Below, one piece after another: positions 10,547-25,677 of a DNA stretch of 64,000 bases. Source of the stretch: Bacteroidaceae bacterium (GTDB taxonomy: Bacteria > Bacteroidota > Bacteroidia > Bacteroidales > Bacteroidaceae); contig JAFUWG010000036.1 of NCBI GenBank assembly GCA_017483605.1, forward strand, positions 45,369 through 109,368, written 5' to 3'. A model generated the notes under the pieces. It saw nothing but the letters and a program-made list of their open reading frames with translations, was not told the origin of the DNA and ran no database searches. Positions within the stretch are counted from its first letter, which is position 1; every line of letters begins with the position of its first letter. The translations under genes and the position numbers were made by a program.

Positions 10547-11644
10547 TCAGCGACCGAACTTCTGCCGCTTCCACTCCGACCAAGGTACGGAGTAGCCGTT
10601 CTGCTTGTTGTCCTGCACGTAGGCATAGAGCAACGGAACAAGGTAACTCGTTTCGGTGAAGAGGCTTACACGCCACTTCTGCTCACCTGGGCGTTTGCCC
10701 TGATAGAACAGGCTGGTGCCGCCAAGTTGTGTCTGACGATAAAGAATGTCCTTCATCGGAAGGTCGGGATTACGCAACATATCGAAGAACGACATCCAGA
10801 GCGTGGTGCGACCACGACCTGCCTGACAATGCATGTGTACCCACGCACGTTCGGGCAGCGAACGGTAGATGTCGAGGAACTGGTCGATGACATAGTCGCA
10901 AGGGAACACGTGGTCGAGTGCGGCAAGACGCAGGTAATTCAGTCCGTAACGCTCCACCATCTCTTTCTCCGTCCATGCACTATCTACATCGACAAGAAGA
11001 TTCTGAGCGTTGGTCATGACATAGTTGTTTGAACCGCTGATATTGCCCACCACGATGCGTTGTCCCTTGAGCGAGTGGAAAATCGAATCCTCTTCACGCA
11101 AGATGTCCTCACGACGGCGACCGATATTGGACCAATTGATATAGCCATACCACGACACGTGGTTACCATTCACATATCCGTGTGTCTCCTGACGCAAGTC
11201 GAGGATGTAGATGGGCATATCGCCTGCATGTTCCTTCAGCCAAGGGAGGACAACCTGCATATCCTTGTCCGACAAGCGAGAACTGCCGGAGAGGTAGAGG
11301 TGGTCGAGCCCCTCTCGCGTAGGCACATAGGAGGTGTCGGGCAGTTCGCTCGCCGCACCTACGTTGCGGAACGGACCGCCCATCCAGCGGAAGGCAAAAA
11401 TGTCGTCAACACTCTTGATGTCTTTGTTCGGTGCCTCCATACGCCACTCCTGTGCCCTGTAGCCCCAGCGGCTCACATCGTCGAGGTTTTCACGCTCGTT
11501 GGCTTTGTTGATGAACTTGTAGATGGTGGAGGAGAACTCCGTCTGGGCTGTCACGGTTCCGTGTGCCCCTAAGAATACGGCAACGATGGCTGCCAACTTG
11601 ATTGTTCTGTTTCTCATTTTTTCGTTATTTTTGTCATTTGTCAA
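10547..11644 (-). CDS. PTP-like phytase (inositol polyphosphate phosphatase), exported
   Basis: This 365-residue protein has an N-terminal signal segment ending near VTAQ (residue 34). The active-site loop HCQAGRGRT at residues 272-280 matches the HCxxGxxR(T/S) P-loop of cysteine phosphatases, with nucleophile Cys273 and Arg279. The preceding stretch around Asp244 (DHVFPCD) fits the general-acid loop of PTP-like phytases, and NHVSWYGYINWSNIG is also typical of that group. It should release phosphate from inositol phosphates in the periplasm. It follows a 5'-nucleotidase gene by four bases, so the pair forms a phosphate-scavenging operon. The second Met (11617) is an alternative start closer to the signal peptide. 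Confidence 0.85.
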   Translation of the reverse strand: MTNDKNNEKMRNRTIKLAAIVAVFLGAHGTVTAQTEFSSTIYKFINKANERENLDDVSRWGYRAQEWRMEAPNKDIKSVDDIFAFRWMGGPFRNVGAASELPDTSYVPTREGLDHLYLSGSSRLSDKDMQVVLPWLKEHAGDMPIYILDLRQETHGYVNGNHVSWYGYINWSNIGRRREDILREEDSIFHSLKGQRIVVGNISGSNNYVMTNAQNLLVDVDSAWTEKEMVERYGLNYLRLAALDHVFPCDYVIDQFLDIYRSLPERAWVHMHCQAGRGRTTLWMSFFDMLRNPDLPMKDILYRQTQLGGTSLFYQGKRPGEQKWRVSLFTETSYLVPLLYAYVQDNKQNGYSVPWSEWKRQKFGR

Positions 11645-11648
11645 ATCG

Positions 11649-13220
11649 TCAATTCACCGTCACCCGCCCTTGTGGCTTGGCATATCGCTTGCCCAGTTTG
11701 CCCTTGAGCCGATGCTTCAGATAGTCAGCCAGCATGTCGCGACTGAGTTTGGTGCTGCCTTCGATGAGACGGCACTCCTTCAGGGTGCTGTAGAAGCCGC
11801 CCGAACTGTAATAGTCGTTGGTGCCCACCGTGTAACGGCGTGTCGGCTCCAAGGGCTTGTAGCGTCCTGTGTGACCTTCCTCCACCTCGACGTTGCTCAC
11901 CGTGTGAGTGGCGGTGTCGATGGTGTAACGCATTCCGGCGACATGCGGGAACGAGCCGTCGGCCTTCGGGCACTTCTCCGTACACTTTTGCAACATGCCA
12001 AGCAGTTGCTCGCCTGTTGCCTCTATCAGACAGACATGATTGTCGAAAGGCTGCACAGAGATAATGTCGCCATAGTTGATTTTTCCCTTGGGCAACCCGT
12101 TACGCAGACTTCCGCCATTCACCAATCCTATTTCCGCCCCTGTCTCGGCACGATAAGCGTCTGCCACCATGTCGCCGATGGCGGCGGTGCTGCGTCTTAC
12201 AATCCACGAACCATCGGCATCCTTCACCGGCAGGTCGTATGGCGACTTTGCGATGTGCCGCGATGACACCTGGTCAATCAAGGCTTTCACGCTGTCGGTG
12301 GTGAGTGCCACACGTTCGCTGACGTAGGGGATGTTGTCAATCGGTATCAACTCCGTCAGCATACGACCGTCTGGCGTGATGGTCAACTTGCCCACCGTGG
12401 CAAACTGCGTGCCTGTCTGCGTGAGCGGCACCTGCAACCCGATGTTGTTGACGACGCTGTCACGCTCTATTCTGGCATGGGTATGGCCGTCAAGCACCAC
12501 GTCGATGCCGTGAGTGTTCTCCACAAGCCCATGCGACCAGATGCCCGTAGAGCGTATTTCTTCGCCCAAATGTGACAACACCACCACGTAGTCGGCACCC
12601 TCAGCCCGAGCCTTGTCCACCGCCTGCTGCACCAGTCGGTAGGTATCATCGGCACACAGGTCATAGAGTTTTTTCCCGTCATTGTCGAAGAAAGCGTATG
12701 CCTCCGAACGCATCGACTCGGGGGTGGTGACGCCCACAAAGGCGACACTTCGATTGCCATAACGCTTGATGAGGTAGGGCAGGAACATCGGGGCATCTTC
12801 GCCAACGGCAAAGAAATTGGCCGCGGTCACCGGCACGTCAAGGTCTGCCAGCAGTTCCCTCATGCGTGGCACACCATAGTCAAACTCATGGTTCCCCAAG
12901 GTCAAGGCATCATAACTCATCTGCCGCATGATGTCAATAATGTACTGCCCGTGGGAAATCGCTCCAGCCAAAGCCCCTTGCAGGAAGTCGCCGCAGCAGA
13001 CCATGCCCACATCACACGTGTCGGCCTTGAGAATGGCATCATACAGCCCCTGCATACGTTGGTAACCGTCGATGCCACAATGGACATCGTTCTCATAGAG
13101 TATCACGATGGTTTTCCCATCGGCACTCTGACTGGTGGCATCGGCTACTTGCTGATGGGCACAAAGGCACTGTGCCACCGCCATTGCCACACAAAAAACA
13201 AAAATTTCCATCTTCTTCAT
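11649..13220 (-). CDS. Exported 5'-nucleotidase / UshA-like metallophosphatase
   Basis: Of 523 residues, the first 20 form a signal peptide. The metallophosphatase domain shows the ordered metal-binding motifs ILYENDVHCG, CCGDFLQG, LGNHEFDYG, LSHLGEE and LDGHTHARIE between about residues 38 and 260. The C-terminal half is the 5'-nucleotidase substrate domain (GSLRNGLPKGKINYGDI near 370, YSSGGFYST near 475). The protein removes phosphate from nucleotides in the periplasm. It is the upstream gene of the phytase pair. Family members differ in substrate, so specificity is open. Confidence 0.92.
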   Translation of the reverse strand: MKKMEIFVFCVAMAVAQCLCAHQQVADATSQSADGKTIVILYENDVHCGIDGYQRMQGLYDAILKADTCDVGMVCCGDFLQGALAGAISHGQYIIDIMRQMSYDALTLGNHEFDYGVPRMRELLADLDVPVTAANFFAVGEDAPMFLPYLIKRYGNRSVAFVGVTTPESMRSEAYAFFDNDGKKLYDLCADDTYRLVQQAVDKARAEGADYVVVLSHLGEEIRSTGIWSHGLVENTHGIDVVLDGHTHARIERDSVVNNIGLQVPLTQTGTQFATVGKLTITPDGRMLTELIPIDNIPYVSERVALTTDSVKALIDQVSSRHIAKSPYDLPVKDADGSWIVRRSTAAIGDMVADAYRAETGAEIGLVNGGSLRNGLPKGKINYGDIISVQPFDNHVCLIEATGEQLLGMLQKCTEKCPKADGSFPHVAGMRYTIDTATHTVSNVEVEEGHTGRYKPLEPTRRYTVGTNDYYSSGGFYSTLKECRLIEGSTKLSRDMLADYLKHRLKGKLGKRYAKPQGRVTVN

Positions 13221-13306
13221 GCTACAAATTTACGTCTCTTTTTATATCTCACAGCACTTATTTGTAAAAAAATAATGAAATAACCCTCAAAAAGTTGAAA
13301 AATCAG

Positions 13307-13314
13307 TACCTTTG
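13307..13314 (+). promoter_or_regulatory. First of two tandem -7 boxes for pyrE
   Basis: TACCTTTG followed by CAAC. A second box, TATCTTTG plus CAAC, lies at 13350-13357, and the bases between them partly repeat. Either could drive pyrE, leaving a leader of 45 or about 90 bases. Confidence 0.6.
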
Positions 13315-13349
13315 CAACGGAAACGGATTCATAATGACAAAAATATCCG

Positions 13350-13357
13350 TATCTTTG
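13350..13357 (+). promoter_or_regulatory. Second -7 box for pyrE
   Basis: TATCTTTG, 51 bases before the preferred pyrE ATG at 13409. See the box at 13307. Confidence 0.6.
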
Positions 13358-13408
13358 CAACAAGCATTCGATACAATCAATAAAACAATCATATACAGAA
13401 AGAAAATT

Positions 13409-14041
13409 ATGAAAGCATTGGAGAAGATTTTTGCGGCAAAACTGCTGAACATTAAGGCAATCAAGTTGCAGCCGGAGAACCCGTTCACATGGGCAAGCGG
13501 CTGGAAATCGCCGTTCTATTGCGATAACCGAAAGACATTGAGTTATCCCGAGTTGCGTAACTTTGTGAAGTTGGAAATCTGCCGCATCATCGAGGAAAAC
13601 TTCCAAGATGTAGATGCCATCGCAGGTGTGGCTACGGGCGCCATTCCACAGGGAGCATTGGTGGCTGATGCCCTGCACAAGCCTTTCGTATATGTACGCA
13701 GCAAACCCAAGGACCACGGGCTGGAGAACCTCATCGAGGGCGAGTTGAAGCCAGGCATGAAAGTGGTGGTGATTGAAGACCTCATCTCCACGGGTGGCTC
13801 GTCGCTGAAGGCGGTAGAGGCAATCCGCAACAACGGATGCGAGGTGATTGGCATGGTGGCAAGTTACACGTATGGCTTCGATGTGGCAAAGAAAGCCTTC
13901 GACGATGCCAAGGTGAAACTCATCACCCTGACCAACTACGAGGCGGTGCTGGATGTGGCATTGAAGACTGGCTACATCACGGAAAATCAGATTCCTGTAT
14001 TGAACGAATGGAGGGCTAACCCAAGCGAGTGGCAAAAGTAA
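13409..14041 (+). CDS. pyrE: Orotate phosphoribosyltransferase
   Basis: The 210-residue product begins MKALEKIFAAKLLNIKAIKL, the usual start in Bacteroidales. The frame stays open upstream to 13295, but that region holds both promoter boxes. The enzyme joins orotate and PRPP to give OMP. The PRPP loop is visible as VVVIEDLISTGGSSLKA near residue 112, and the FTWASGWKSPFYCDNR segment near 23 binds orotate. The next gene (SRPBCC protein) is in the same direction but separated by a hairpin array. Confidence 0.97.
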   Translation: MKALEKIFAAKLLNIKAIKLQPENPFTWASGWKSPFYCDNRKTLSYPELRNFVKLEICRIIEENFQDVDAIAGVATGAIPQGALVADALHKPFVYVRSKPKDHGLENLIEGELKPGMKVVVIEDLISTGGSSLKAVEAIRNNGCEVIGMVASYTYGFDVAKKAFDDAKVKLITLTNYEAVLDVALKTGYITENQIPVLNEWRANPSEWQK

Positions 14042-14048
14042 AGTAAAA

Positions 14049-14148
14049 GTGAAAAATGAAAAGTGAAAAATTTGCTACCGCATTTGTGTCAACAGGTAGC
14101 ATACTGTTGCGGTAGCAAATTTTTCACTTTTCACTCTTCATTTTTCAC
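14049..14148. repeat. Stop-rich word array forming a long hairpin between pyrE and the SRPBCC gene
   Basis: The left arm (14049-14082) reads GTGAAAAATGAAAAGTGAAA then AATTTGCTACCGCA. The right arm (14108-14148) is its complement with an extra 7-base word. The 25-base loop contains a third, inverted copy of the core (GGTAGCA at 14095). The arms are built from the same GTGAAAAGTGAA words as at 8881-9043. Confidence 0.85.
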
Positions 14149-14165
14149 TCAAAACTTTAGTTTTT

Positions 14166-14627
14166 ATGGCAAAATACGAAAGTCAAATTAAGCAAGTGCC
14201 GTACACACAAAGTGCGGTTTATGCGAAGGTTGCCGACCTGACCAACCTGGCAGTTATCAAGGAGCGTATCAACGACCCCAAAGTGCAGGAACAAATCCCT
14301 GCCGGCAAGATTGATGAGGTACGCAAAGCGATTGAGCAGATGGATTTTACGACCGACACAGCGAGCGGTCCTGCAGGTCCTGTCGGCAACATCTCCGTGC
14401 AAATCGTGGAACGTGAACCCGAGAAATGCGTGAAGTTCGCTTCGACCAGTTCACCTGTCAGTTTCAAACTGTGGATTCAAGTGCTCCCCACCAGCGAGAC
14501 ATCCAGCAAAATCAAGGTGACGATTGATGCCGACCTCAACTTCTTCATGAAGCAGATTCTGGAGAAGCCCCTCAAACAAGGTGTGGACAAATTTGCCGAC
14601 ATGCTGGCAATGATACCGTATGAATAA
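14166..14627 (+). CDS. SRPBCC-fold (START-like) protein
   Basis: This cytoplasmic protein has 153 residues and begins AKYESQIKQVPYTQSAVYAKVADLTNL, of which VPYTQSAVYAKVADL is the helix-capping start typical of SRPBCC proteins. A long C-terminal helix (LNFFMKQILEKPLKQGVDKFADML) follows. The fold makes a hydrophobic pocket for lipids or other ligands. No ligand can be inferred. It is 14 bases upstream of argH, so the two are probably co-transcribed. Confidence 0.85.
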   Translation: MAKYESQIKQVPYTQSAVYAKVADLTNLAVIKERINDPKVQEQIPAGKIDEVRKAIEQMDFTTDTASGPAGPVGNISVQIVEREPEKCVKFASTSSPVSFKLWIQVLPTSETSSKIKVTIDADLNFFMKQILEKPLKQGVDKFADMLAMIPYE

Positions 14628-14641
14628 GGGAAAAACTAAAA

Positions 14642-15982
14642 ATGGAAAGTGAAAAACTTTGGACAAAGAACGTCTCCATGACGGAGGAGATAGAAAAGTT
14701 CACCGTGGGCAGAGACCGCGAGATGGACTTGTATCTGGCAAAGTACGACGTGCTTGGCTCGATGGCTCACATCACCATGTTGCAGTCGATTGACCTGTTG
14801 ACTGCGGATGAGTTGAAGGTGCTCTTGAAGGAGTTGAAAGCCATCTATCAGCAGGCAGAGAAGGGTGAGTTTGTGATTGAGGAGGGCGTGGAGGATGTGC
14901 ACTCACAGGTTGAGATGCTGCTGACTCGCAAACTCGGCGACATCGGCAAGAAGATTCACTCGGGCCGCAGCCGCAACGACCAGGTGCTGGTGGACTTGAA
15001 ACTCTTCATCCGCGACCAAATCAAGGAGATAGCAGGGCTGGTGAAGAGCCTCTTCGACGAACTCATCGCCCAGTCGGAACGGTACAAGAACGTGCTCATG
15101 CCTGGCTACACCCATCTGCAAGTGGCGATGCCCAGCAGTTTCGGCCTGTGGTTCGGTGCCTACGCCGAAGGACTGGTGGATGACATGCAGTATCTGCAAG
15201 CGGCATGGAAAATCACCAACCGCAACCCGCTCGGCTCGGCTGCAGGTTACGGCAGTTCGTTCCCCCTCAACCGCCAGATGACCACCGACCTTCTCGGCTT
15301 CGACTCGATGGACTACAACGTGGTCTATGCCCAGATGGGACGCGGAAAGACGGAAAGGAATGTGGCGTTCTCAATGGCAAGCATCGCCGGCACCCTCGCC
15401 AAGTTGGCGTTCGATGCCTGCATGTTCAACTCGCAGAACTTCGGCTTCGTCAAACTTCCTGCCGACTGCACCACTGGCTCCAGCATCATGCCCCACAAGA
15501 AGAACCCCGACGTGTTTGAGTTGACCCGTGCCAAGTGCAACAAACTCCAATCGCTGCCTGTCACGGTCACGATGATTATGAACAACCTGCCCGTCGGCTA
15601 CTTCCGCGACCTGCAAATCATCAAGGAGGTCTTCCTTCCCGCCTTCGACGAACTGAAGGACTGCCTTCAGATGGCGGCATACATTATCAATAAGATGGAG
15701 GTAAACGAACACATTCTCGACAACCCCATCTACGACCCGATGTTCTCCGTCGAAGAGGTGAACCGCCTCGCCCGTGAGGGGATGCCTTTCCGCGATGCCT
15801 ACAAGAAAGTGGGTCTCGACATCGAGGCTGGCAACTTCACCCCCAACAAGGACATCCACCACACCCACGAAGGCTCCATCGGCAACCTCTGCAACGACAA
15901 AATCCAAGCCCTCATGGATGATGTGATGGCTGGCTTCAAGTTCGAGAAGATGGAAGAGGCAGTGAAGAAATTGTTAAATTAA
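14642..15982 (+). CDS. argH: Argininosuccinate lyase
   Basis: The 446-residue enzyme splits argininosuccinate into arginine and fumarate, the last step of arginine synthesis. Family signatures are HSGRSRNDQV near residue 107 and the fumarase/aspartase superfamily loop GSSIMPHKKNPDVFE near 280, which carries the catalytic serine. The start MESEKLWTKNVSMTEEIEKF is close behind the SRPBCC gene. Carbamoyl phosphate from CarB feeds the same pathway. Confidence 0.97.
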   Translation: MESEKLWTKNVSMTEEIEKFTVGRDREMDLYLAKYDVLGSMAHITMLQSIDLLTADELKVLLKELKAIYQQAEKGEFVIEEGVEDVHSQVEMLLTRKLGDIGKKIHSGRSRNDQVLVDLKLFIRDQIKEIAGLVKSLFDELIAQSERYKNVLMPGYTHLQVAMPSSFGLWFGAYAEGLVDDMQYLQAAWKITNRNPLGSAAGYGSSFPLNRQMTTDLLGFDSMDYNVVYAQMGRGKTERNVAFSMASIAGTLAKLAFDACMFNSQNFGFVKLPADCTTGSSIMPHKKNPDVFELTRAKCNKLQSLPVTVTMIMNNLPVGYFRDLQIIKEVFLPAFDELKDCLQMAAYIINKMEVNEHILDNPIYDPMFSVEEVNRLAREGMPFRDAYKKVGLDIEAGNFTPNKDIHHTHEGSIGNLCNDKIQALMDDVMAGFKFEKMEEAVKKLLN

Positions 15983-15992
15983 AAGAATCATC

Positions 15993-16370
15993 ATGAACAA
16001 CGCAGATTTTTGGGCATCCATCCGCACCATTATTGCCGAGGGTTTCACACCCGAAGGTCTGCACAAACTGGAAGAGTATGCAGAAGATTTCATCAGTGGA
16101 CGGTTGGTATATCAACGCTTTTCACCGCACGAACAGCATGGCTGCGCAACGGGAGGTGCAACAAATGTCATTGCATCCCTGCTCGCGGGAGCAGAAGATA
16201 GAACAGATTCAGATGCTGCGAAAACTCTCAGCGAGTTCCAAAGAGAGTGCCAACACGGAGCGAAGCAGGAGGGATTGCAATATTCGCATCAACACACCAG
16301 ATTTACGGCAAGGTGGAAAACGAGTATTGAATACAAATGTGGTATTTTATCCTTAAAGAGTGTAATATGA
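15993..16370 (+). CDS. Short protein of unknown function, possibly a truncated mobile-element-type gene
   Basis: The 125-residue frame begins 10 bases after argH. The first 70 residues (FWASIRTIIAEGFTPEGLHK, then FISGRLVYQRFSPHEQHG and NVIASLLAGAE) look like real protein. They resemble, from memory, the start of the putative polyvalent protein kinases found on Bacteroidales mobile elements. The last 50 residues have odd composition and the expected kinase-like body is missing, so the gene may be a truncated relic. Family identity is a weak guess. Confidence 0.5.
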   Translation: MNNADFWASIRTIIAEGFTPEGLHKLEEYAEDFISGRLVYQRFSPHEQHGCATGGATNVIASLLAGAEDRTDSDAAKTLSEFQRECQHGAKQEGLQYSHQHTRFTARWKTSIEYKCGILSLKSVI

Positions 16371-16414
16371 ACAAATAGACATAACAACATAAAGAAGCGT
16401 TGACTTTTTGATTC

Positions 16415-16533
16415 TTGTTCCAGAAAATTCGCCAAAAATATCTCTCAAGATGATAGAAGTTGATGCTCGCGTTTTGGCGCGGGCTGATACTTGTATTTGA
16501 GAGAACGGCGTTTGGCGATGCCTCTGGAACGAA
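16415..16533. repeat. Imperfect long hairpin with centred third word
   Basis: The left arm (16415-16448, TTGTTCCAGA to TCTCTCAA) and right arm (16497-16533, TTGAGAGA to TCTGGAACGAA) pair imperfectly. The loop centre carries CGCGTTTTGGCGCG, a third copy of the arm core CGCCAAA/TTTGGCG. The layout recalls the three-word elements but the spacing is about 40, not 23. It fills most of the 300-base gap before the thioredoxin gene, in which I see no gene or clear promoter. Confidence 0.55.
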
Positions 16534-16670
16534 CACACAGAATCAGACTCGTGCCGTTTTTATGCCCTTTGATTAAGAAAGTTTAACACCTTTGAAAGTT
16601 AACATTGCCGCATGTATTGCGTATATATAATATATATAAATAGTAGGAACAAATATAAACGAAACGAACA

Positions 16671-17963
16671 ATGAACAAGAAAACCATCATCACCGCACTG
16701 TTCGCCCTCGTCACAATAGCGGGGCAGGCACAAGTGAAATGCCACATTGAAGGCAAGTTTGTTGATAACAATTGGGGCGACGAAGTCGTCATCTGCAAAA
16801 TGGGGACCGACCTGCGCGTCAATGATGCACCAGAATGGCATCACAAGGCCGTGAACGGGCACTTCGAGTGTGACATAGAAACGGACGTTCCCGAAATGTA
16901 CGAGATTATTCCCTATAAACAGTACATAGAGACTTCCAGTTACTATTACGGTTGGTTCATCGTGGAGAACGGAACGGTAAGCATAGAAATCTTTGGCGAC
17001 AAGGCTCCAAAGATAGAGAGTACTGGCGACGAGGGCCGATTGCATCAGGCAATGGATAGCGTTGCAGGAGTTCGGTTTCGTAACGAAATGGAGAGGATAG
17101 ACCGCGAATTGGAGGAACACAAGGAAAAATACTTCAAACCCGAATTCCTGTCACTCATGGAGATAGTCAAAAACATGGATAGGGAAAGCCTACCCAAGAC
17201 ATACGTTGACAGTATCAACAATGTGATGGACTACTATTATGACAACGAACGCGAGAGCTACACCGACGAAGGCTGGCAACTTTTTCAGCGCAGTGACAGC
17301 CTAAGCCGTCTCAGTTATCCGTTCCGAGCAGAATATTACGAGCAACACCCCATGCTTTGGGCTTACTACCACGTATTGCAGTCAATCGAAATGCTCAGGT
17401 ATGCGGACGTAGACCGGAATTTCGACGCCACGCCACATGAGCAAATGGTCTCACTCTACGAAACAAAGCTATGCAATTTGTATAAAGGTCATCCCGTTCA
17501 CGGACAGATTGCCACAGCCTTAACAGCACTTCGCTTTCAGCCCGGCAAGCCCTACATTGATTATAATGTTCGCAACACCGATGGTCAAATCGTCCCCATC
17601 TCTTCGCTCATCCGTGGAAAAGTGGCGCTTATCGACCTCTGGGCATCGTGGTGCGGCCCCTGCCGTCGGCATAGCAAGGCCATGATTCCCGTCTATGAGA
17701 AGTACAAAGACAAAGGATTTACTGTCGTAGCCATAGCCCGCGAACGCAAGCGAGAAGACATGGAAAACGCGGTGCGAAAGGATGGCTACCCATGGACGAG
17801 CCTGTTGGAACTGAACGACGAGAATCAGGTGTGGCGTAAGAACGGTGCCGGCAATGCAGGCGGAGCCATGTTCCTTATCGATCGCGACGGCACCATTCTC
17901 TCCACCTCCACCGATGCAGAGGAATTAGAGCCACTCATCAAGAAAGCACTAAACATCGAATAA
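16671..17963 (+). CDS. Exported TlpA-like thiol:disulfide protein
   Basis: This 430-residue protein has a signal peptide (cleavage after AGQAQ, about residue 21). A beta-rich N-terminal domain of the DUF4369 type (residues 22-115) is followed by a helical middle and a thioredoxin domain from about 285. The active site WCGPC is at about 326-330, and the cis-proline side (GGAMFLIDRDG) is also present. Such proteins reduce or exchange disulfides in the periplasm, often to serve stress or cytochrome pathways. Substrates are unknown. The gene appears to be monocistronic. Confidence 0.88.
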   Translation: MNKKTIITALFALVTIAGQAQVKCHIEGKFVDNNWGDEVVICKMGTDLRVNDAPEWHHKAVNGHFECDIETDVPEMYEIIPYKQYIETSSYYYGWFIVENGTVSIEIFGDKAPKIESTGDEGRLHQAMDSVAGVRFRNEMERIDRELEEHKEKYFKPEFLSLMEIVKNMDRESLPKTYVDSINNVMDYYYDNERESYTDEGWQLFQRSDSLSRLSYPFRAEYYEQHPMLWAYYHVLQSIEMLRYADVDRNFDATPHEQMVSLYETKLCNLYKGHPVHGQIATALTALRFQPGKPYIDYNVRNTDGQIVPISSLIRGKVALIDLWASWCGPCRRHSKAMIPVYEKYKDKGFTVVAIARERKREDMENAVRKDGYPWTSLLELNDENQVWRKNGAGNAGGAMFLIDRDGTILSTSTDAEELEPLIKKALNIE

Positions 17964-17993
17964 GCAACGAACAAAAACAATTATTGCCCTTAA

Positions 17994-18062
17994 ACCGACG
18001 TCCCCGATGTCGGTCAACCGATGTCCCCGATGTCGGTCGACCGATGTCGGGGACGTCGGTTT
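17994..18062. repeat. Three-word 23-nt-period hairpin element, second sequence type (F-F-R)
   Basis: Near-identical 21-base words start at 17995, 18018 and 18041, again exactly 23 bases apart. The first two share CGTCCCCGATGTCGGT or GATGTCCCCGATGTCGGT in forward orientation, and the third is inverted (GATGTCGGGGACGTCGGT). The outer words pair over about 24 bases. GGTTTTGTG follows. The sequence is unrelated to the GGTCTGAGTCACACC family. The rest of this 324-base gap has only the aldo/keto reductase promoter. Confidence 0.9.
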
Positions 18063-18255
18063 TGTGGCTGTGGAAGCACCCCATCCGAGACTTCGCCACG
18101 AAACCATCCGAGGCAACACCGTAAAACCACACAGAGCCGTGAGTTTGTTCGTGGAAAATTTGGCGAAAAAGGAGATTTGTCGTACCGTTCGCTTCGCGCA
18201 AGGTACTCACGCTCGGAAAAACCCCAATAAATTTGTTTTTTCTCTCACTTTGTCG

Positions 18256-18263
18256 TACCTTTG
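18256..18263 (+). promoter_or_regulatory. -7 promoter box for the aldo/keto reductase gene
   Basis: TACCTTTG lies 24 bases before the ATG at 18288. It rules out the longer frame starting at 18261. Confidence 0.7.
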
Positions 18264-18287
18264 CGACCGACAAAACTAATAAGACGT

Positions 18288-19259
18288 ATGATTTACAAAT
18301 ACAGCGGACATTCGGGGGTGCAACTCCCTGTGCTGAGCCTTGGCTTGTGGCACAATTTTGGTTCTGTCGATGACTTCTCGGTAGCCACGCAGATGGTGGT
18401 GAAGGCATTCGATGCGGGCATTTGCCATTTTGATTTGGCGAACAATTATGGGCCTGTGCCGGGGTCGGCAGAGACGAATTTTGGTAGAATCTTGAAGAAT
18501 CAGTTGGCAAGCCATCGCGATGAGATGTTCATTTCGTCGAAGGCTGGGCACGATATGTGGCCAGGCGTGTATGGTGGCAACAGCAGTCGCAAGAACTTGA
18601 TTGCCAGTTGCGACCAGAGTTTGAAGCGGACAGGGCTGGAATACTTCGACATCTTCTACAGCCACCGTTACGATGGTGTGACGCCGATTGAAGAGACGAT
18701 GCAGGCACTCATCGACTTGGTGCGGCAGGGCAAAGCACTCTATGTGGGCATCTCGAAATATCCACCAGAGTTGCAGCAGAAGTGTTACGACATCCTGAAG
18801 GAAGCACACGTGCCGTGCCTGCTCTCCCAGTATCGCTGCTCGATGTTCGACCCGAAAGCCAAGAACAACAACTTCCAGATTGCAGCCGACAATGGCAGCG
18901 GCATCATCTGCTTCTCGCCTTTGGCACAAGGATTGCTGACAGGCAAGTACAACAACGGCATACCCGAAGGCAGCCGTGCCGCTCGCAGCACAGGTTTCTT
19001 GCAACAGAGCCAAGTGACCCCAGAACGTGTGGAGGCGGTGAAGAAACTCGCCGTCATTGCCGAAGAGCGTGGACAGAGCATCGCACAGATGGCACTTGCC
19101 TGGGTGTTGGCAGACGAGCGTGTGACCAGTTGCATCATCGGCACATCGTCCGTGAAGCAGTTGGAGAACAACCTCGACACGCTCAACAACCTCACTTTCA
19201 GTCCCGAAGAGATGGAGCGAATCGACCACATCATTTCTGACCCACAGTTATGGTTCTAA
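18288..19259 (+). CDS. Aldo/keto reductase, YghZ-like
   Basis: This protein has 323 residues. The catalytic tetrad of the superfamily is visible as Asp49, Tyr54, Lys85 and His126 (FDLANNYGP, ISSKAGHDMWPG, FYSHRYDG). The SSKAGHDMWPG segment and the PVPGSAE insertion match the L-glyceraldehyde-3-phosphate reductase group of E. coli YghZ. It should reduce small aldehydes or ketoses with NADPH in the cytoplasm. The next gene overlaps its end by ten bases, suggesting co-translation with the lipoprotein. Confidence 0.92.
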   Translation: MIYKYSGHSGVQLPVLSLGLWHNFGSVDDFSVATQMVVKAFDAGICHFDLANNYGPVPGSAETNFGRILKNQLASHRDEMFISSKAGHDMWPGVYGGNSSRKNLIASCDQSLKRTGLEYFDIFYSHRYDGVTPIEETMQALIDLVRQGKALYVGISKYPPELQQKCYDILKEAHVPCLLSQYRCSMFDPKAKNNNFQIAADNGSGIICFSPLAQGLLTGKYNNGIPEGSRAARSTGFLQQSQVTPERVEAVKKLAVIAEERGQSIAQMALAWVLADERVTSCIIGTSSVKQLENNLDTLNNLTFSPEEMERIDHIISDPQLWF

Positions 19260-19792
19260 TCAAGCGTCTCGCCCCACTCTTCTGCATCCTCATCGGCATG
19301 GTCAGTTGTTCTGACGATGCCACTTCCACCTACTCCAAACGCGAGTATGTCTATTGCTACTTCTCCGTACTTCAATATACGGAGTTGTTCAACGTGATGG
19401 GCAACTACGGGCAGTTCGCCACCATTCGGAAACGTGTGGTCAACGGTGCGACCAAAATCACCATGACCAGCACCGGCAGTTCTACCGACTACACCGCCGA
19501 TGCCCTCAGCGCCAACTTCGGCTTGGGGCTCGGAGGACTCATCGTCGGCACCAACCACTATGGCGAAACCCTCTGCTACGACCTCGCCTGCCCCATCTGC
19601 GACCGTGCCGACCGCCGCCTCTCACTCAGCGACAACGGCTATGCCAAATGCTCGAAGTGCGGCACCACGTTCGACATGAACAATTACGGAGCCATCTACG
19701 AAGTTTCAGAAGACAACCCACCAGCCACCCATCGAGGACTTTACCGCTATCGAGTCCGCTACGATGGACAAATCGTCAATGCCTACAACTGA
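19250..19792 (+). CDS. Lipoprotein with two CxxC knuckles (Rieske- or ribbon-like)
   Basis: This 180-residue protein has a lipobox ending at Cys20 (IGMVSC), followed by SDD. Residues 120-155 hold ACPIC and KCSKC separated by about 20 residues, then TFDMNNYGAIYE. The spacing resembles a Rieske domain in which the histidines are replaced by cysteines, or a zinc ribbon. Homologous small lipoproteins occur across Bacteroidales without a known role. The gene overlaps the reductase before it and the flippase after it, so all three probably form an operon. Confidence 0.75.
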   Translation: MVLIKRLAPLFCILIGMVSCSDDATSTYSKREYVYCYFSVLQYTELFNVMGNYGQFATIRKRVVNGATKITMTSTGSSTDYTADALSANFGLGLGGLIVGTNHYGETLCYDLACPICDRADRRLSLSDNGYAKCSKCGTTFDMNNYGAIYEVSEDNPPATHRGLYRYRVRYDGQIVNAYN

Positions 19793-21281
19793 CCTGAAAG
19801 ACAAAGCCGCACGAGGATTCCTATGGGGAGCCTTGAACAACGGTGCGACGCAGGTGCTGAACACCGTGTTCGGCATCCTGTTGGCTCGTCGGTTGGGACA
19901 AGCCGACTACGGACTGATTGGCATGTTGGCTGTCTTCACGCTTATTGCCAACTCCCTGCAAGACAGCGGATTCGTGACAGCATTGACCAACAAACGCGAT
20001 GCCACCCGACAGGACTACAACGCAGTCTTCTGGTTCAACATCGGGGTGAGTCTCTGTCTCTACATTCTCTTCTTCTTTTGTGCCCCCCTCATCGCACGGT
20101 TCTTCGACGAGCCCATCCTGACCGACCTTTCCCGCTATTACTTCCTCGGCTTCTTCATCGCCTCGTTCAGCATCGTGCCGCGAGCCATCCTGTTCCGTCA
20201 GATTCGTCAACGAGAATTGGCAGTGATGGGCTTGGTGTCGCTCCTCGTGTCGGGCATCGTCGGCATCGCCATGGCATACAACGGCATGGCATACTGGGGA
20301 CTTGCCACCCAAACCATCACCTTCAACCTCATGGTCAGCATTCTCAGTTGGTTGCTCTCGGGATGGAGACCAACCTTCCCCCTGTCCGAATGGAGAGAAT
20401 CGCCCAGCACATGGGCTGAGCCTATTCGCGAGATGTTCGCCTTCTCTTCCAAGATGCTCATTACCAACATCTTCATCGGCGTGAACAACAACATTTTCTC
20501 GCTCGTGCTGGGCAAAATCTACACCAAGCACGAAGTGGGCACGTACAACCAAGCCAACAAGTGGAACACCATGGGAGCCTCCACCATCACCGGCATGGTG
20601 CAAGGCGTGGCACAACCCACCTTTGTGCAGGTAGGCGATGACCTTCCTCGCCTCCGTCGAGCCTTCTCCAAGATGCTCCGTTTCACCTGTTTCGTATCCT
20701 TCCCCATCATGCTTGGGCTTTCGCTCGTAGCACCCGAATTTATCGTGGTGCTCATCGGCGAGAAGTGGCTCTCTTCAGCCCATCTCATGCAGTTGCTCTG
20801 CATCGGCGGAGCCTTCCTGCCCATTGCCACCCTCTACTACAACCTCATCATCTCGCGTGGCAAGTCCGATGTCTATATGTGGAACATCATCGCACAAGGC
20901 TGTGCCATCCTCGGCTCCATACTGATAATACATGCAGCCGGTGGCACCATTACCCACATGGTCATTGCCTACGTCGCCATCGTCATTCTTTGGGTCGGCA
21001 TCTGGCACCGTTTCCTCTATCAAGAAATCCGTTACCCCTTCCTCCTTGCCCTCAGAGACATCCTTCCCTTCCTGCTCATCGCCACCGCAACGATGGTCAT
21101 CACCTACTTTGCCACCCGTCCCCTGACCGCATGGGGAGAAGCACCCAACGCATGGGCAAGACTGCTCCTGCTGCTCATCACACGCATCCTCCTTGCCGCC
21201 GCCATCTATCTCGGCACGTTATGGCTTTTCGGTGCCAAGATTCTCCGCGAATGCTTGGGTTACTTGTCCAAAAAGAAATAA
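19764..21281 (+). CDS. Polysaccharide flippase (MOP superfamily, Wzx-like)
   Basis: This 505-residue protein has about 12-14 hydrophobic helices. The start segment KAARGFLWGALNNGATQVLN, a long amphipathic helix, and RLGQADYGLIGM are typical of Wzx-type lipopolysaccharide exporters. It would move lipid-linked sugars across the inner membrane. A start 15 bases downstream (MPTTDLKDKAARG, 19779) is equally plausible. It overlaps the lipoprotein gene by 29 bases. The glycan island at 39-55 kb has no flippase of its own, so a functional link is possible but not shown. Confidence 0.88.
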   Translation: MDKSSMPTTDLKDKAARGFLWGALNNGATQVLNTVFGILLARRLGQADYGLIGMLAVFTLIANSLQDSGFVTALTNKRDATRQDYNAVFWFNIGVSLCLYILFFFCAPLIARFFDEPILTDLSRYYFLGFFIASFSIVPRAILFRQIRQRELAVMGLVSLLVSGIVGIAMAYNGMAYWGLATQTITFNLMVSILSWLLSGWRPTFPLSEWRESPSTWAEPIREMFAFSSKMLITNIFIGVNNNIFSLVLGKIYTKHEVGTYNQANKWNTMGASTITGMVQGVAQPTFVQVGDDLPRLRRAFSKMLRFTCFVSFPIMLGLSLVAPEFIVVLIGEKWLSSAHLMQLLCIGGAFLPIATLYYNLIISRGKSDVYMWNIIAQGCAILGSILIIHAAGGTITHMVIAYVAIVILWVGIWHRFLYQEIRYPFLLALRDILPFLLIATATMVITYFATRPLTAWGEAPNAWARLLLLLITRILLAAAIYLGTLWLFGAKILRECLGYLSKKK

Positions 21282-21304
21282 AGAGAACCACTCTTTGAAA
21301 AGAA

Positions 21305-21406
21305 ACCCTTCGTCGCTCCCTCGTGTCGTATCAATTCATGCACGGGTGTTGTATGATTATCATACCTCGACATGAATTGATACGACACGAGGGAGCGACG
21401 AAGGGT
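21305..21406. repeat. Perfect 36-bp inverted repeat with nested palindrome
   Basis: The arms are 21305-21340 and 21371-21406, perfectly complementary. The 30-base loop contains the 15-base palindrome GTATGATTATCATAC (21351-21365). On the minus strand the hairpin is followed by TTTCTTTT, so it can end the flavodoxin operon. It lies between convergent genes. Confidence 0.9.
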
Positions 21407-21427
21407 AAAATGGAAAAATCTCGTTTA

Positions 21428-21838
21428 TCAAACGTTTTGTTTGGCAATGAATAGGCGAAAATCTTCCAGATCGGCTTGGTTGGGATGTCCGGCATGGAGA
21501 GGTCCCATCGAGCCCCGACAGGTAAATTCCTCGGAAGAGACGGTGATGCCTTGGGCTTCGAGCAGTTGCCGCATTTGGGGAACGGGCGACTTGATGATGG
21601 CACAAGAACCGAAGCAAATCACCTTCTTCACCTGCTCGGGTTTAAGCGTCTTGATAAAATCAACGACGGCACTGTTCACTTTGCCCAACATAACCCCACT
21701 GCCCAGATAGAGGGTGTCAACGGGTTCTGTGAGCGGAACTGCGACGGTTTCGGGTTTCACACCCGTGAGTTCACGAATCACGCCGACCATCTTCTCTGTG
21801 TGGCCGAACTTGCTGAAATAACGAATTGCGATGTTCAT
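21428..21838 (-). CDS. Flavodoxin-like protein
   Basis: The 136 residues open with MNIAIRYFSKFGHTEKM, a phosphate-binding loop of the flavodoxin type (S/T-x-x-G-x-T), and continue with LYLGSGVMLGKV and VICFGSCAIIKSPVP, which would line FMN. It is short for a flavodoxin and fits the flavodoxin-like electron-transfer proteins of anaerobes. As last gene of an eight-gene operon with a radical SAM protein and two rubredoxin domains, it is a natural electron donor for one of them (inference). Confidence 0.85.
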   Translation of the reverse strand: MNIAIRYFSKFGHTEKMVGVIRELTGVKPETVAVPLTEPVDTLYLGSGVMLGKVNSAVVDFIKTLKPEQVKKVICFGSCAIIKSPVPQMRQLLEAQGITVSSEEFTCRGSMGPLHAGHPNQADLEDFRLFIAKQNV

Positions 21839-21860
21839 CTTTTATTTTGTTTTTATGTGA

Positions 21861-22964
21861 TTATACGACCATTTTCTCTATTTCCTCCCGATGCTCAAAC
21901 AGGGTGCAGCCGCCTGTATGCTCCCATCCGAGGGCTTTGGCGGCACGAATCTTGCGGAAGAGTGGCGACTGGAGGGCTTTCCGCACCCCCATTTCGGCTA
22001 CGTTGCTGTCGCTGAAAGGCGAGAAGGGGCAGGGTTCCGCCGAGCCATCGGGACCGATGTGGAAGAATCCACGACCAGATGCCAGACAGCCGCCCAGGGC
22101 TTTCTCGTCGCCAGGGAAAGAGAGGAAGATGATGTCGGCATAGGCTTGGCGACGCTCCGTCAGGAGGGCTTCCATCTCTGCCACATGCTCGTCGGCAAAA
22201 GCCAGATGCTCTGTGCCAGGTTCCGTCGGCACATACTCTACATAGAAGACGATTTTGCAGCCGTAAGAGCGGAGGGTGTCGATGAACTCTGGCGAGGTGA
22301 CATAGCGGTAGTTCTCGGTGGTCACGGTGATGCTGGTGCCAAAGAAAAGGTCATCCTCCTTCAGCATCTCCATCGACTGCATGGCACGCTTGAACACCCC
22401 CTTGCCACGGCGTTCGTCGGTGCCCATCGCCGTACCTTCAATGCTGATGATGGGTACCATGTTGAGGTGCTTACGGAAAAACTCCATGTAGGAGGGGCCA
22501 ATGAGGGTGCCGTTGGTGAAAATGGGAAAAATCATGTCCTTCACCTCGGCGATGCCCTCCAAGATGTCTTTCCGCATTAGGGGTTCGCCACCTGCGATGA
22601 GGGAAAAGTTGATGCCCATGTCGGCAGCCTCGGCGAAGATGCGTTTCCACTGTTCCCCCGTCAAGGTGTCCTTACGTTCAGCCTCCTTATCTTCTGCGAT
22701 GCCGTTGCTGCGTGCATAGCAGCCCTTGCAATGCAGATTGCAGGTGGTGGAGATGCTGCTGATAAGAAACGGCGGCACCTCCAATCCCTCCTTCTCCTGC
22801 ACCTTCTTCCGTCGGCTTTCCGACTTCTGGAAGAGCGTCTGCATCCGATAGGCAAACTTCGCCTCACGAGGGTTCGAGAGCACGTTCTTGTATGCCTTTG
22901 CCATGATGTTGCGGATGCTGTTGCTCATGTAGGCACCCAAGTCAATTGTCGTGTTTTCTGTCAT
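21861..22964 (-). CDS. Radical SAM protein with short SPASM-like tail
   Basis: The 367-residue protein has the cluster motif CNLHCKGC at 75-82 (CxxxCxxC), followed by the SAM-binding AGGEPLM at 124-130. Three further cysteines (293, 312, 353; GGCLASGRG, EPCPF, GGCTLF) could hold an auxiliary cluster, fewer than a full SPASM domain. The substrate is unknown. It lies 12 bases after the lactamase-fold/rubredoxin gene and 22 before the flavodoxin gene, both possible electron carriers for it. No small precursor-peptide gene is visible nearby, so peptide modification is not supported. Confidence 0.92.
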   Translation of the reverse strand: MTENTTIDLGAYMSNSIRNIMAKAYKNVLSNPREAKFAYRMQTLFQKSESRRKKVQEKEGLEVPPFLISSISTTCNLHCKGCYARSNGIAEDKEAERKDTLTGEQWKRIFAEAADMGINFSLIAGGEPLMRKDILEGIAEVKDMIFPIFTNGTLIGPSYMEFFRKHLNMVPIISIEGTAMGTDERRGKGVFKRAMQSMEMLKEDDLFFGTSITVTTENYRYVTSPEFIDTLRSYGCKIVFYVEYVPTEPGTEHLAFADEHVAEMEALLTERRQAYADIIFLSFPGDEKALGGCLASGRGFFHIGPDGSAEPCPFSPFSDSNVAEMGVRKALQSPLFRKIRAAKALGWEHTGGCTLFEHREEIEKMVV

Positions 22965-22976
22965 TCCGTCCTGATG

Positions 22977-23918
22977 CTATGCTTTGTTGAACTTCTCCTT
23001 ACCTTGTTTGCAACGAGGACATTTCCAGTCGTCGGGCAGGTCTTCGAATGCCACGCCGTCGTGCTCGGCTGGGTCATAGACATAGCCGCAGATGGAGCAG
23101 ACATATTTGCCCGATGCCTCCTGCTGCTCAAAGTTCACCTCCGCCAAAACGGTCGGAACGGGGTTGTCCAAGTCCATCACACGCTTTGCCTCCAAGTTCT
23201 CGTAGCCTTGTGGGGTGTGGGTGCCGCAATAGACAGTGGGGTGGTTGCGGACAAACTCACGCACACGGTCTAAGGTCTCGCGGGCAGCGGGGAGGTCATC
23301 GTAGACCACCGACAACTTGTTCTCATAGAGGGCCTCGTCCATATAGGTGATGTCGCCATGAAGCATGTAGAAGAGTCCGCCTGTCTCCACAACGACGATG
23401 CTGTTGCCGTTGGTGTGTCCCTTTGCCTTGATGAAGTAGATGCCGTCCTGAATCTTCTGAGCCTCAGGGAAGTTGTAGTAGGCACCATCGGTGAACGACA
23501 CTGGCACAAGGTTCTCGATGCCTTGCAGTTCGGCGGCACTCAGTTCGTCCTTGTTCACGTAGATTTTCGCATTGGGGAAGGAACGGAGTTCGCCAGAGTG
23601 GTCGGCATGCTTGTGGGTGAGCAGAATCTTGGTCACTTGCTCGGGCTTGTAGCCAAGGGCGGCAAAAGCCTCCATGTAGGTGCTGATGTCCTTACCCGTA
23701 AAGGCAAGCGAGTTCTCGTCGGGATGCTCTTCTGGGGTTCCTGCGGGAATGCCCGTATCCACAAGAATCACTTCGGTGCCTGTGTCAATCAGGTAGTTCT
23801 GCAAACTGCCGCGATAGCGGATATTCTTGTCAAACTTCTCCATCCCCTCTTCGCCGCCAAAGACGAAAGGCTGGGTGTAGAAGCCATCTTTTCTAAACTT
23901 TACTGCTTTGATTTCCAT
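22977..23918 (-). CDS. Metallo-beta-lactamase-fold hydrolase fused to rubredoxin
   Basis: The 313-residue protein starts [14 protein letters not shown]. The frame is open further upstream but that part overlaps the rubredoxin gene. The hydrolase domain has the full zinc set: His102, His104, Asp106 and His107 (THKHADH), His168, Asp189 and His234. This is the HxHxDH form seen in lactonases and related hydrolases, not the HxExD diiron form of flavodiiron proteins. Residues 270-310 are a rubredoxin domain with Cys274, 277, 300 and 303. A hydrolase fused to an electron carrier is unusual. The redox domain may serve the downstream radical SAM protein. Confidence 0.93.
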
Positions 23919-23938
23919 CTTAGTATCTTTTTTAGTGC

Positions 23939-24100
23939 TTATTCTTCTACAGCTACAAACTTCTCCTTCTTCCGCTTGCAACGAGGGCAACGCCATGTGT
24001 CGGGAAGGTCTTCAAACTTGGTGCCAGCAGGGATGTTTTGCTTGGGGTCTCCCTTTTCGGGGTCATAGGTGTACTTACAGGGGCAAACAAACTTTGTCAT
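23939..24100 (-). CDS. Rubredoxin with a CxC first knuckle
   Basis: This 53-residue protein reads as rubredoxin throughout ([25 protein letters not shown]). The second knuckle C38-P-R-C41 is normal. The first reads V-C6-P-C8-K instead of C-x-x-C-G, one residue short. The bases on both sides are unambiguous in this sequence. The C-terminus is very basic. It is 20 bases upstream of a gene with a second, normal rubredoxin domain. It should carry electrons in the cytoplasm if iron still binds. Confidence 0.88.
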
Positions 24101-24143
24101 AGTCTTTAGGTTTTTAGAAAGTTAATAAAAGATTTCGGGGTTG

Positions 24144-24923
24144 TTATCCTAACACCACATCGAGCACCATCATCAAGACGAAGCCAATGGCAAAGCCGAT
24201 GGTGCTGAGGTTGGTGTGCTTGCCTTCGGAGGCTTCGGGAATGAGTTCTTCCACCACCACGTAGAACATGGCACCTGCTGCGAAGGCGAGCATGTAAGGA
24301 AGTATCGGAGTGAGCAGCGAGGCGAGCAGCACGACTGCCAATCCACCAATCGGTTCGACGGCTCCACTCAAACTGCCCAGCATGAACGAACGCCAACGGG
24401 AGTTGCCTTCGGCTCGCATGGGCATGGAGATGATGGCACCCTCGGGCACGTTCTGAATGGCGATACCCAACGACACCGCCACCGCTGATGCGATGGAGAT
24501 GTTCGCCACTCCTTGTTCCGCTCCGGCAAAGACCACACCCACCGCCATGCCTTCCGGCAGGTTGTGGATGGTGACAGCAAGTGCCAGCATGGCTGTGCGA
24601 GAGAGTTTGGAACGAGGGCCTTCGGGTTGGCTGTTGCCCAAATGTAAGTGAGGGGTCACCTCGTCGAGCACGAGCAGGAAGCCGATGCCAAGCAGGAAAC
24701 CCACAGCGGCAGGAACCACCGACCACGCCCCTTTCCCCTCCTCCATCTCCATGGCAGGAATGAGCAGCGACCACACTGAGGCGGCAACCATCACGCCCGA
24801 CGCAAAGCCGAGCAGCGACTTCTGCACACGTTCAGGCATATCGTCCTTCATGAAGAAGACGAATGCAGCCCCAAGCATGGTGCCTAAGAGGGGAATGAGC
24901 AAACCAATCGCGATTGTCAGCAT
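24144..24923 (-). CDS. ZIP-family metal transporter
   Basis: The 259-residue protein has eight hydrophobic helices. The paired metal-site motifs of ZIP proteins are present: HNLPEGMAVG in helix 4 and QNVPEGAIIS in helix 5. The loop after helix 3 carries PHLHLG, a likely metal-binding loop. It probably imports Zn or Fe across the inner membrane. An upstream GTG (24944) would add seven residues, but those bases form the right half of a hairpin, so the ATG at 24923 is preferred. Its place between a ferritin-like gene and rubredoxins favours iron (inference). Confidence 0.92.
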   Translation of the reverse strand: MLTIAIGLLIPLLGTMLGAAFVFFMKDDMPERVQKSLLGFASGVMVAASVWSLLIPAMEMEEGKGAWSVVPAAVGFLLGIGFLLVLDEVTPHLHLGNSQPEGPRSKLSRTAMLALAVTIHNLPEGMAVGVVFAGAEQGVANISIASAVAVSLGIAIQNVPEGAIISMPMRAEGNSRWRSFMLGSLSGAVEPIGGLAVVLLASLLTPILPYMLAFAAGAMFYVVVEELIPEASEGKHTNLSTIGFAIGFVLMMVLDVVLG

Positions 24924-24927
24924 AAAC

Positions 24928-24995
24928 AAAAAAAGGGGTGACACGGTCTGGTGTCTTCAGCGATGTCGCTTAGTCACTCGTACCTATCACCCCTT
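24928..24995 (-). promoter_or_regulatory. Terminator-like leader hairpin before the ZIP gene
   Basis: On the minus strand AAGGGGTGA (24995-24987) pairs with TCACCCCTT (24941-24933), then TTTTTGTTT leads straight into the ATG. Inside lie two smaller stems, AGCG/CGCT and GACAC/GTGTC. It is either the terminator of the 57-residue gene or an attenuator controlling ZIP. The match to a named riboswitch class was not seen. Confidence 0.6.
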
Positions 24996-25059
24996 GGCAA
25001 AAAATGAGTATGAAGTTACTAAAGTGAGGTTACTTACACCGATACGTTACTGCCGTTCC

Positions 25060-25233
25060 TTACTGAGCAGGAGTCCACTTGCAACGTACTGGTGACACGA
25101 TAGCACCTTCTTTTTTCAGTTCTGCAAAAGCCTTGTCCACCTCCTTGCGGTCGGCACCAAGAGCCTTCGTCACGTCGCCAGCCGAAACTGGCTTGCCTGC
25201 TTCACGCATGGCTTGTAATACTTGCTCTTTCAT
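25060..25233 (-). CDS. 57-residue winged-helix-like protein
   Basis: The short frame begins MKEQVLQAMREAGKPVSAGD and ends KKEGAIVSPVRCKWTPAQ. The pattern helix, Pro-Val-Ser turn, helix (VTKALGADRKEVDKAFAELKKEG) and beta-wing (AIVSPVRCKW) is that of a minimal winged helix. It could be a small DNA-binding regulator of the operon in which it sits, between the PNPOx-fold gene and the ZIP gene. Only one cysteine is present, so it has no obvious metal site. Confidence 0.85.
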   Translation of the reverse strand: MKEQVLQAMREAGKPVSAGDVTKALGADRKEVDKAFAELKKEGAIVSPVRCKWTPAQ

Positions 25234-25253
25234 AAGCCAATATTATTATAAGG

Positions 25254-25652: not shown

Positions 25653-25677
25653 AGTGTTACATTATATTTAATAGTTA

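Follow-up and report, generated by a model that had tools for sequence, protein, structure and literature searches.

We analysed a 64,000-nucleotide stretch of a Bacteroidaceae draft genome (3.06 Mb in 56 contigs; labelled G000 in cross-genome counts), here called the window, in which a compact repeat array lies between a thioredoxin-fold gene, which we take to be tlpA-like, and an aldo/keto reductase gene. Three 15-nt quasi-palindromes begin at 17997, 18020 and 18043, at a pitch of exactly 23 nt and with the third inverted, and the first starts 34 nt past the stop of the thioredoxin-fold gene. Genes were called with a home-made hexamer caller that makes array-to-gene distances approximate; a cruder caller used before it had placed the array within a small ORF. 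The features of the locus are:

16671 to 17963, + strand: thioredoxin-fold gene upstream of the array, with AhpC-TSA, Redoxin and Thioredoxin_8 matches
17992 to 18062, no strand: whole hairpin, a 24-bp outer helix around a 9-bp hairpin
17997 to 18011, + strand: unit 1, GACGTCCCCGATGTC, a quasi-palindrome inside the 21-mer 17994 to 18014
18020 to 18034, + strand: unit 2, GATGTCCCCGATGTC, whose bases, together with flanking ones, form the inner 9-bp hairpin
18043 to 18057, − strand: unit 3, GATGTCGGGGACGTC, in inverted orientation and paired with unit 1 in the fold
18060 to 18079, + strand: right outer arm, TTTTGTGGCTGTGGAAGCAC, like the TTTTGAGGC(T/A)GTG(G/A)AAG arm at the same locus in relatives
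18291 to 19259, + strand: aldo/keto reductase gene downstream of the array

An earlier note on this DNA had described 21-base words at 17994 to 18062, spaced 23 bases apart in forward-forward-inverted (FFR) order, and these are present, with the corresponding 23-mers beginning at 17993, 18016 and 18039. Because each unit is nearly palindromic, a forward-forward-inverted series reads as a single long palindrome with its centre in unit 2. This hairpin folds better than 200 of 200 shuffles, with z-scores of −8.0 as DNA and −10.0 as RNA. The left outer arm is degenerate at this array, four T residues directly follow unit 3, and Rfam returned no match at gathering score anywhere in the window.

Triples at pitch 23, which the earlier note had proposed to count against shuffled controls, are in excess in the window and in scans of 411 kb and 708 kb of the genome. 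In the window, an FFR scan over pitches 15–40 returned five arrays at pitch 23 (4651, 10402, 17994, 27243 and 57363), one at 16, one at 21 and none at any other pitch, and five shuffles gave a single match in total, at pitch 17. An FFR/FRR scan of 411 kb over pitches 14–35 found 23 arrays at pitch 23, nine at 14, seven at 21 and at most two at every other pitch, with none in one shuffle per piece. Free of any assumed word or orientation, a search for three alike quasi-palindromic 15-mers (pitches 18–30, intervals differing by at most 1) recovered 54 triples in 707,759 bases of the genome and none in one shuffle per piece. Thirty-eight have intervals of 23/23, one each 23/24, 24/23 and 24/24, and 13 are at 21/21; within these bases and the searched range of 18–30, no triple fell outside pitches 21 and 23–24. 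One sequence sample took in contigs picked for matches to other queries.

Orientation is less regular than pitch. The 38 arrays at 23/23 comprise 16 FFR, 11 FRR (FFR seen from the opposite strand), 6 FRF and 5 FFF, labels that depend on few letters because the units are near-palindromic. The forward-forward-inverted design is therefore true of the 17994 array and fails as a general rule. The whole-array palindrome is a better common feature of the arrays: self-complementarity of the same 38 averages 79% (lowest 42%), compared with a mean of 26% for random stretches and 58% for the best of 2000.

The 54 triples amount to about eight word families, which are represented as follows:

Family a, GGTCTGAGTCACACC: 28 arrays, in the window at 4651 to 4717, at 10402 to 10468 (between convergent called genes) and at 57363 to 57429, each at pitch 23
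Family a2, GGTGAGAGTCTCACC: 1 array
Family b, the word of the 17994 array: 1 array
Family c, GTACCCCTCGGGTAC: 5 arrays, in the window at 27243 to 27309, pitch 23
Family d, GACCACGTCGTGGTC: 4 arrays
Family e, GGACTGGAGCAGTCC: 1 array
Family f, AATTCAACTTAAATT: 9 arrays, in the window at 43025 to 43081 (AATTCAAGTTAGATT type), pitch 21
Family g, TTCATCGACGACGAA: 4 arrays
Outside families a–g: 1 array

A search for single words instead of triples, allowing at most 2 mismatches, found family a in clusters of three (28 clusters), two (1) and one (5), with none larger and a spacing of 23 in 55 intervals and 24 in 2. Family c words occur in clusters of three (5) and one (1), family d in clusters of three (3) and one (5), family e in clusters of three (1) and one (1), family f in clusters of three to five (9) and one (2), and family g in clusters of four (4) and one (21); b-type words form one cluster of two and seven singles and a2 words 12 singles, and some of these single-word matches are chance, shuffles of 12 pieces having given 0–5 per family. 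The b word itself has a single place in this genome, the remaining matches having E values of at least 0.137. Twenty-six family-a copies show a mean column identity of 84% over 113 columns, and two of them (in L213), alike in their flanks, are apparently a single stretch that was duplicated. Much of the sharing within one word family is descent by dispersal. Inspection by eye of the flanks of families a and f revealed no target-site duplication, sharp ends or clean empty site. In the sample from this genome, family f (window 43001–43105 and eight more copies) is an AT-rich palindrome of about 109 bp at pitch 21 that ends in CTTAAAAC...GTTTTAAG in most copies, by eye with no target duplication.

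None of the 54 arrays lies inside a called gene, and their placement between genes in this genome is skewed towards gene ends. Among the 47 arrays with called genes on both sides, 27 lie within 100 nt of a stop codon against 10.5 expected, a number reached by none of 2000 random intergenic placements. Convergent gaps hold 11 arrays (5.7 expected) and divergent gaps 5 (11.5 expected), the upstream stop is the nearer one for 25 of 31 arrays in co-oriented gaps, and in families b, c, e and g the arrays away from edges sit 7–34 nt past stops; at 27243, the first core begins 33 nt past the stop of an AraC-type regulator gene. The gene-end enrichment that the earlier note would count as support is thus present in this genome and does not extend to 400 kb of its relative G055 (3 of 10 arrays, 2.9 expected) or 400 kb of Bacteroides xylanisolvens (1 of 4, 0.9 expected), both small samples.

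These positions make a functional 3′-end element, a terminator or mRNA 3′-end stabiliser in which selection keeps a strong hairpin whatever its letters, the main functional rival, and the very stable fold of the 17994 array and the stop-proximal, convergent and co-oriented biases all suit it. However, a terminator scan of window positions 10001–29000 placed none of its 15 sites at arrays 10402, 17994 or 27243, at two loci a separate T-tailed hairpin is visible by eye ahead of the array, and folding energy is not biased to the transcribed strand (15 of 31, P = 0.73). We accordingly rejected a simple intrinsic terminator, a GC-rich hairpin followed by a T run, on the first two of these grounds and a directional RNA element on the third. 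The lack of gene-end enrichment in the two relatives also counts against a 3′-end role, which moreover leaves the equal pitch and the three units unexplained. As the chief account of the arrays it is unlikely, if a serious contender, and it is compatible with the dispersed-element explanation developed below.

The gap next to the aldo/keto reductase gene can be compared across species. An aldo/keto reductase was found at E ≤ 1e-100 in 38 of 45 genus genomes, and 30 loci were examined. The array has a CCC core in three units in G000 and G013, in four units in G014 and in one unit in G024, and a GAC core in three units in G003, G017, G045, G055 and G059. An unrelated word, GGTGAGAGTCTCACC, occupies the same gap with three units in G018 and as a copy cut by the contig end in G054. 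G060 has no array at the locus and G044 a degenerate, masked copy; the other 17 of the 30 loci have a different gene or sequence upstream or are unreadable. G014 and G017 have flanks 95.4% identical upstream (at most 370 nt compared) and 96.7% downstream (90 nt) and arrays that match at 47 of 67 positions (70%) when one of the four G014 units is omitted. The word at this locus thus differs between species while the layout persists. In a single-gene tree, G014 (CCC) stands beside G003 (GAC) with support 1.000; the array may have a history other than that of the tree gene, as upstream of it the two genomes are only 70.6% alike. The claim that layout is conserved and sequence is not holds to this extent: several words occur in one layout, and the word differs between species at one locus.

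We also looked for an empty site in G047, a close relative, and found none: G047 carries a near-identical c array, its b locus has other sequence, and nothing on the contig examined matches the 10402 region. A search of the 44 other genus genomes with the protein encoded next to array 10402 gave nothing at E ≤ 1e-60.

Copy number of the words depends on lineage, and so does pitch. Of 41 genomes, 11 matched a family-a query: 42 matches fell in G000, 33–40 in each of G007, G010, G011, G013 and G014, 17–18 in G021 and G023, and 1–4 in three further genomes; the remaining 30 of the 41, among them G016, G017 and G024, gave no match. Nine of 11 hand-chosen genomes gave 19–64 matches to a GAC-word query, and the other two, G000 and G024, gave 4 and 1. 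All these counts take in both strands of a palindrome, come from capped scoring and are good for ranking genomes only. Among 23 distinct arrays of a and a2 words in relatives, 16 have intervals of 24/24, 4 have 23/23 and 3 are mixed, such that a pitch change usually hits both intervals. GAC-type arrays in relatives keep pitch 23, and Bacteroides loci with GAAAC...GTTTC and TTTC...GAAA unit types have pitch 22 in 9 of 9 arrays, as do 4 of 4 arrays in a word-free scan of B. xylanisolvens. With pitches 22 and 24 found elsewhere, 23 is not a universal period. Tandem GAAAC...GTTTC quasi-palindromes at pitch 22 were seen in Bacteroides loci L119, L120, L130 near 2700, L265–L270 and L272–L274; such arrays often exceed three units, and each of four Bacteroides genomes has 26–38 matches.

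Word-free scans were extended to further relatives. In G055, 400 kb of contigs picked because they carry matches held seven triples at pitch 23, one at 24 and two at 21 (none in shuffles), and one more at pitch 27 inside a gene. Samples of 100 kb each gave three triples in G010 and one in G016, samples of G017 (54 kb) and G024 (100 kb) held no palindromic triple, and 346 kb drawn from one genome in each of five other families of the order held no array. The host group of these hairpins is apparently uncultured gut bacteria: in named genomes, the aldo/keto reductase of the window finds its best matches mostly in metagenome-assembled Bacteroidaceae, Prevotellaceae or Bacteroidales, many of them apparently ruminant-derived.

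A recurring pitch and unit number could also reflect a protein-binding array, in which a nucleoid or regulatory protein would occupy three dimer sites at a spacing of some 2.2 helical turns and the word would co-evolve with its binder in each lineage; family a of relatives, judged by eye, keeps the 15-nt core while its spacers vary, as such binding would allow. Set against this are the several unrelated words within one genome and the sites after gene ends in this genome, and we regard a binding array as improbable.

Sequence outside the cores bears on whether the families are one element or several. We scored an arm motif, CCTCAAA or TTTGAGG with at most one mismatch and at most 16 nt outside the core (chance 3.4%), that was picked after the arrays had been inspected. 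The motif is present in 24 of 29 a arrays, 9 of 9 and 12 of 13 b-type arrays (two classes by best-matching word, with several rows that represent a single locus sampled in different species), 3 of 5 d arrays and 3 of 3 a2 arrays. It is mostly missing from families c (1 of 5), e (0 of 1), f (0 of 9) and g (0 of 4) and from arrays of no assigned family (1 of 8). Arrays of the a, a2 and b/GAC types and three of five d arrays have these arms in common and therefore look like one element type; the shared arms suggest that in a, a2, b and, less clearly, d the core word has been replaced within a single kind of element, and separate elements may account for c, e, f and g. The outer arms are inverted repeats, and relatives hold intermediate words such as GAC-CTC-GTC-GAC-GTC. 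The description of the 17994 word as unrelated to others in the same layout is accordingly right in that the word differs and too strong in that its outer-arm motifs are common to another family.

Likeness between the units of one array was assessed by shuffling. In 20 GAC/CCC/CAC-type arrays, units of the same array are more alike than units of different arrays (u1–u3, P = 0.0015; u1–u2, 0 of 2000 shuffles), in a test that pools species and sub-words and to which descent contributes. Family a shows no such excess of within-array likeness (P = 0.53 and 1.0; outer arms, P = 0.17), and we rejected concerted evolution within this family. Covariation in family a is weak and does not choose between one long hairpin and three local ones: the pairing of the long hairpin is equalled in 14 of 500 shuffles and its covariation score in 18 of 500, the corresponding figures for the three local hairpins are 26 and 8 of 500, and counts of two-sided pair changes do not depart from chance (278 of 500 shuffles for the long fold and 286 of 500 for the local folds). 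Comparison of G000 and G047 orthologues reveals one compensatory pair change, GCC/GGC to GCT/AGC; the other changes in this pair leave units 1 and 3 locally perfect with their mutual pairing broken, and on these changes both the long and the local folds may be repaired at times.

Pure descent would make each word family an unrelated three-unit MITE whose architecture is maintained by copying alone. The clearly dispersed relatedness of the family-a copies fits such an account, as do the families without shared arms (c, e, f and g) and the lack of within-array homogenisation in family a, yet the word has changed inside conserved flanks at one locus and arm motifs are common to a, a2, b/GAC and part of d. 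We consider pure descent an unlikely explanation of the whole set.

We lean, with confidence a little above even, towards the view that the array forms the core of an extragenic palindromic element that is dispersed and non-coding and whose symmetry is kept by template switching and conversion. Dispersal, symmetry, a repeated pitch and a word difference within conserved flanks are what we observe directly; from these we infer mechanism and function. A long hairpin would form in replication, and polymerase template switching between its arms would copy a change in one arm onto the other. Slippage or conversion between units could then carry the change along the array, and units would thus stay alike and symmetric while the word drifts, with the CCC core, the GAC core, GAC-CTC-GTC and GAC-CAC-GTC as candidate stepping stones. 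The likeness of units in the 20 GAC/CCC/CAC-type arrays and the compensatory change between G000 and G047 favour such a process, and family a, with no excess likeness and weak covariation, counts against it. Also counted against this reading are the lack of target-site duplications and clean empty sites by eye, the families without shared arms, and the G017 and G024 samples that held no triple. Elements would reach new sites through a copying step, and sites just after gene ends in this genome may be those where insertion does least harm or where an mRNA 3′-end hairpin helps. Template switching is described as able to make and repair stems in the relevant part of one report (PMC8794818). Accounts of quasipalindrome template switching (PMC8794818, PMC8604942) likewise have it create stems and make inverted arms identical; the cases set out in the sections that bear on this are RNA-gene stems and coding inverted repeats, unlike the dispersed multi-unit arrays here.

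A stronger form of the template-switching reading holds that the geometry itself (three near-palindromes at a fixed 21–24-nt pitch with a longer palindrome around them) is heritable, that the sequence is interchangeable and that symmetry is actively regenerated; we put this forward tentatively, as doubtful. If true, words turn over between related species and the element stays in place.

REP/BIME elements, mobilised by RAYT, a Y1 transposase, are one of the two closest known kinds. As far as the pertinent sections of two papers describe them, REP/BIME elements of the GTAG and CGTC families are also extragenic, palindromic and short, with many copies that sometimes cluster and with lineage-specific words (PMC3733652, PMC6006769); the arrays here differ in their three units, fixed pitch and outer arms and in that no RAYT link was found. 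Like REP/BIME, they are many dispersed copies of short extragenic palindromes, and a Y1_Tnp gene is present in this genome, but by eye the repeat on both flanks of that gene is another one, of the AGCCCTGAAGGGGCGA type, and Y1_Tnp occurs at E ≤ 1e-8 in only 8 of 45 genus genomes. At that threshold, a search that covered Y1_Tnp alone found none in drafts G003, G007, G010, G011, G013, G014, G017, G045, G055 and G059, each of which has many family-a or GAC query matches. With the transposase gene next to another repeat and missing from ten array-rich drafts, we rejected RAYT/REP as the main origin, and that the arrays are ordinary REP/BIME elements is highly improbable.

In L007 near 1350–2090 (in G000:C9), inverted AGCCCTGAAGGGGCGA-type repeats stand on both sides of the Y1_Tnp gene and are probably its own REP-like ends. 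The letters CGTC are found within b-, d- and g-type words. CGTC repeats are reported, in the portion of the survey that treats them, to be mostly head-to-head dimers, with grouped ones rare outside two genera (PMC3733652), and the passage on subclass 2.6 RAYTs of Bacteroidetes speaks of 'atypical' flanking structures (PMC6006769).

The nearest named element is BrickBuilt, and defining features of both BrickBuilt and REP/BIME fail here. Its host, Porphyromonas gingivalis, belongs to the same order of bacteria. According to the relevant parts of its description, the BrickBuilt MITE likewise has a 23-nt tandem unit, is intergenic and dispersed, varies in unit number (there between strains) and is predicted to form long stem-loops (PMC4596501). 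A further likeness is that one copy is preceded by a Rho-independent terminator. The same parts of that description give direct repeats of 1 to 22.8 units, whereas 33 of 38 arrays at 23/23 here contain a unit scored as inverted (a score that depends on few letters); BrickBuilt also has a long leader and tail and terminal repeats like those of IS5-family elements, unlike the arrays here, and those parts do not describe word families or a symmetric triple (PMC4596501). Most arrays here have the 23-nt pitch, and 21, 22 and 24 also occur. The BrickBuilt unit consensus AGAYCATARTATCCTCTCRTRTG has no match in the window at up to 3 mismatches and differs by at least 5 mismatches from any site in 708 kb.

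A phage origin was rejected after phage matches to the b query came down to a 33-nt partial match in two records of one phage, and a plasmid origin after the a query found no match in plasmids. Listings of open-licence papers turned up no description of such an element.

Compensatory changes in stems commonly count as proof that RNA structure is under selection. In these natural arrays of related genomes, the letters of a palindrome are replaced and its geometry persists, and selection on structure and mutational copying between arms could be separated by experiment; a related format occurs in Bacteroides, where genetics is possible. The arrays also add a common non-coding element to the genomes of understudied gut Bacteroidales.

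Several other repeats were observed alongside the palindromic triples. A 23-nt unit, CTCCTGCCCGATAAGGGTGGCGA, is directly repeated in 4.9 copies at window positions 32307–32418 and is absent from the palindromic-scan results, and L218:19784 has direct 23-nt repeats, CACAATTCAATTTAGcgttggga, of no clear palindromic character. Arrays of TTGGCTTGAATACAA at pitch 23, hardly palindromic and some with more than three units, occur in three genomes of the genus (L010:13679, L145:13996, L315:14066, L318:16783 and L331:6547). Heptamer repeats of the AAGTGAA / TTCACTC type face each other as long hairpins at window positions 8878–8970 with 9018–9048 and 14040–14071 with 14121–14150 and in L010 near 12671, and similar hairpins occur in loci of several relatives. 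At the first of these sites, the place in G047 that matches window positions of about 8978–9039 carries a family-e-like triple.
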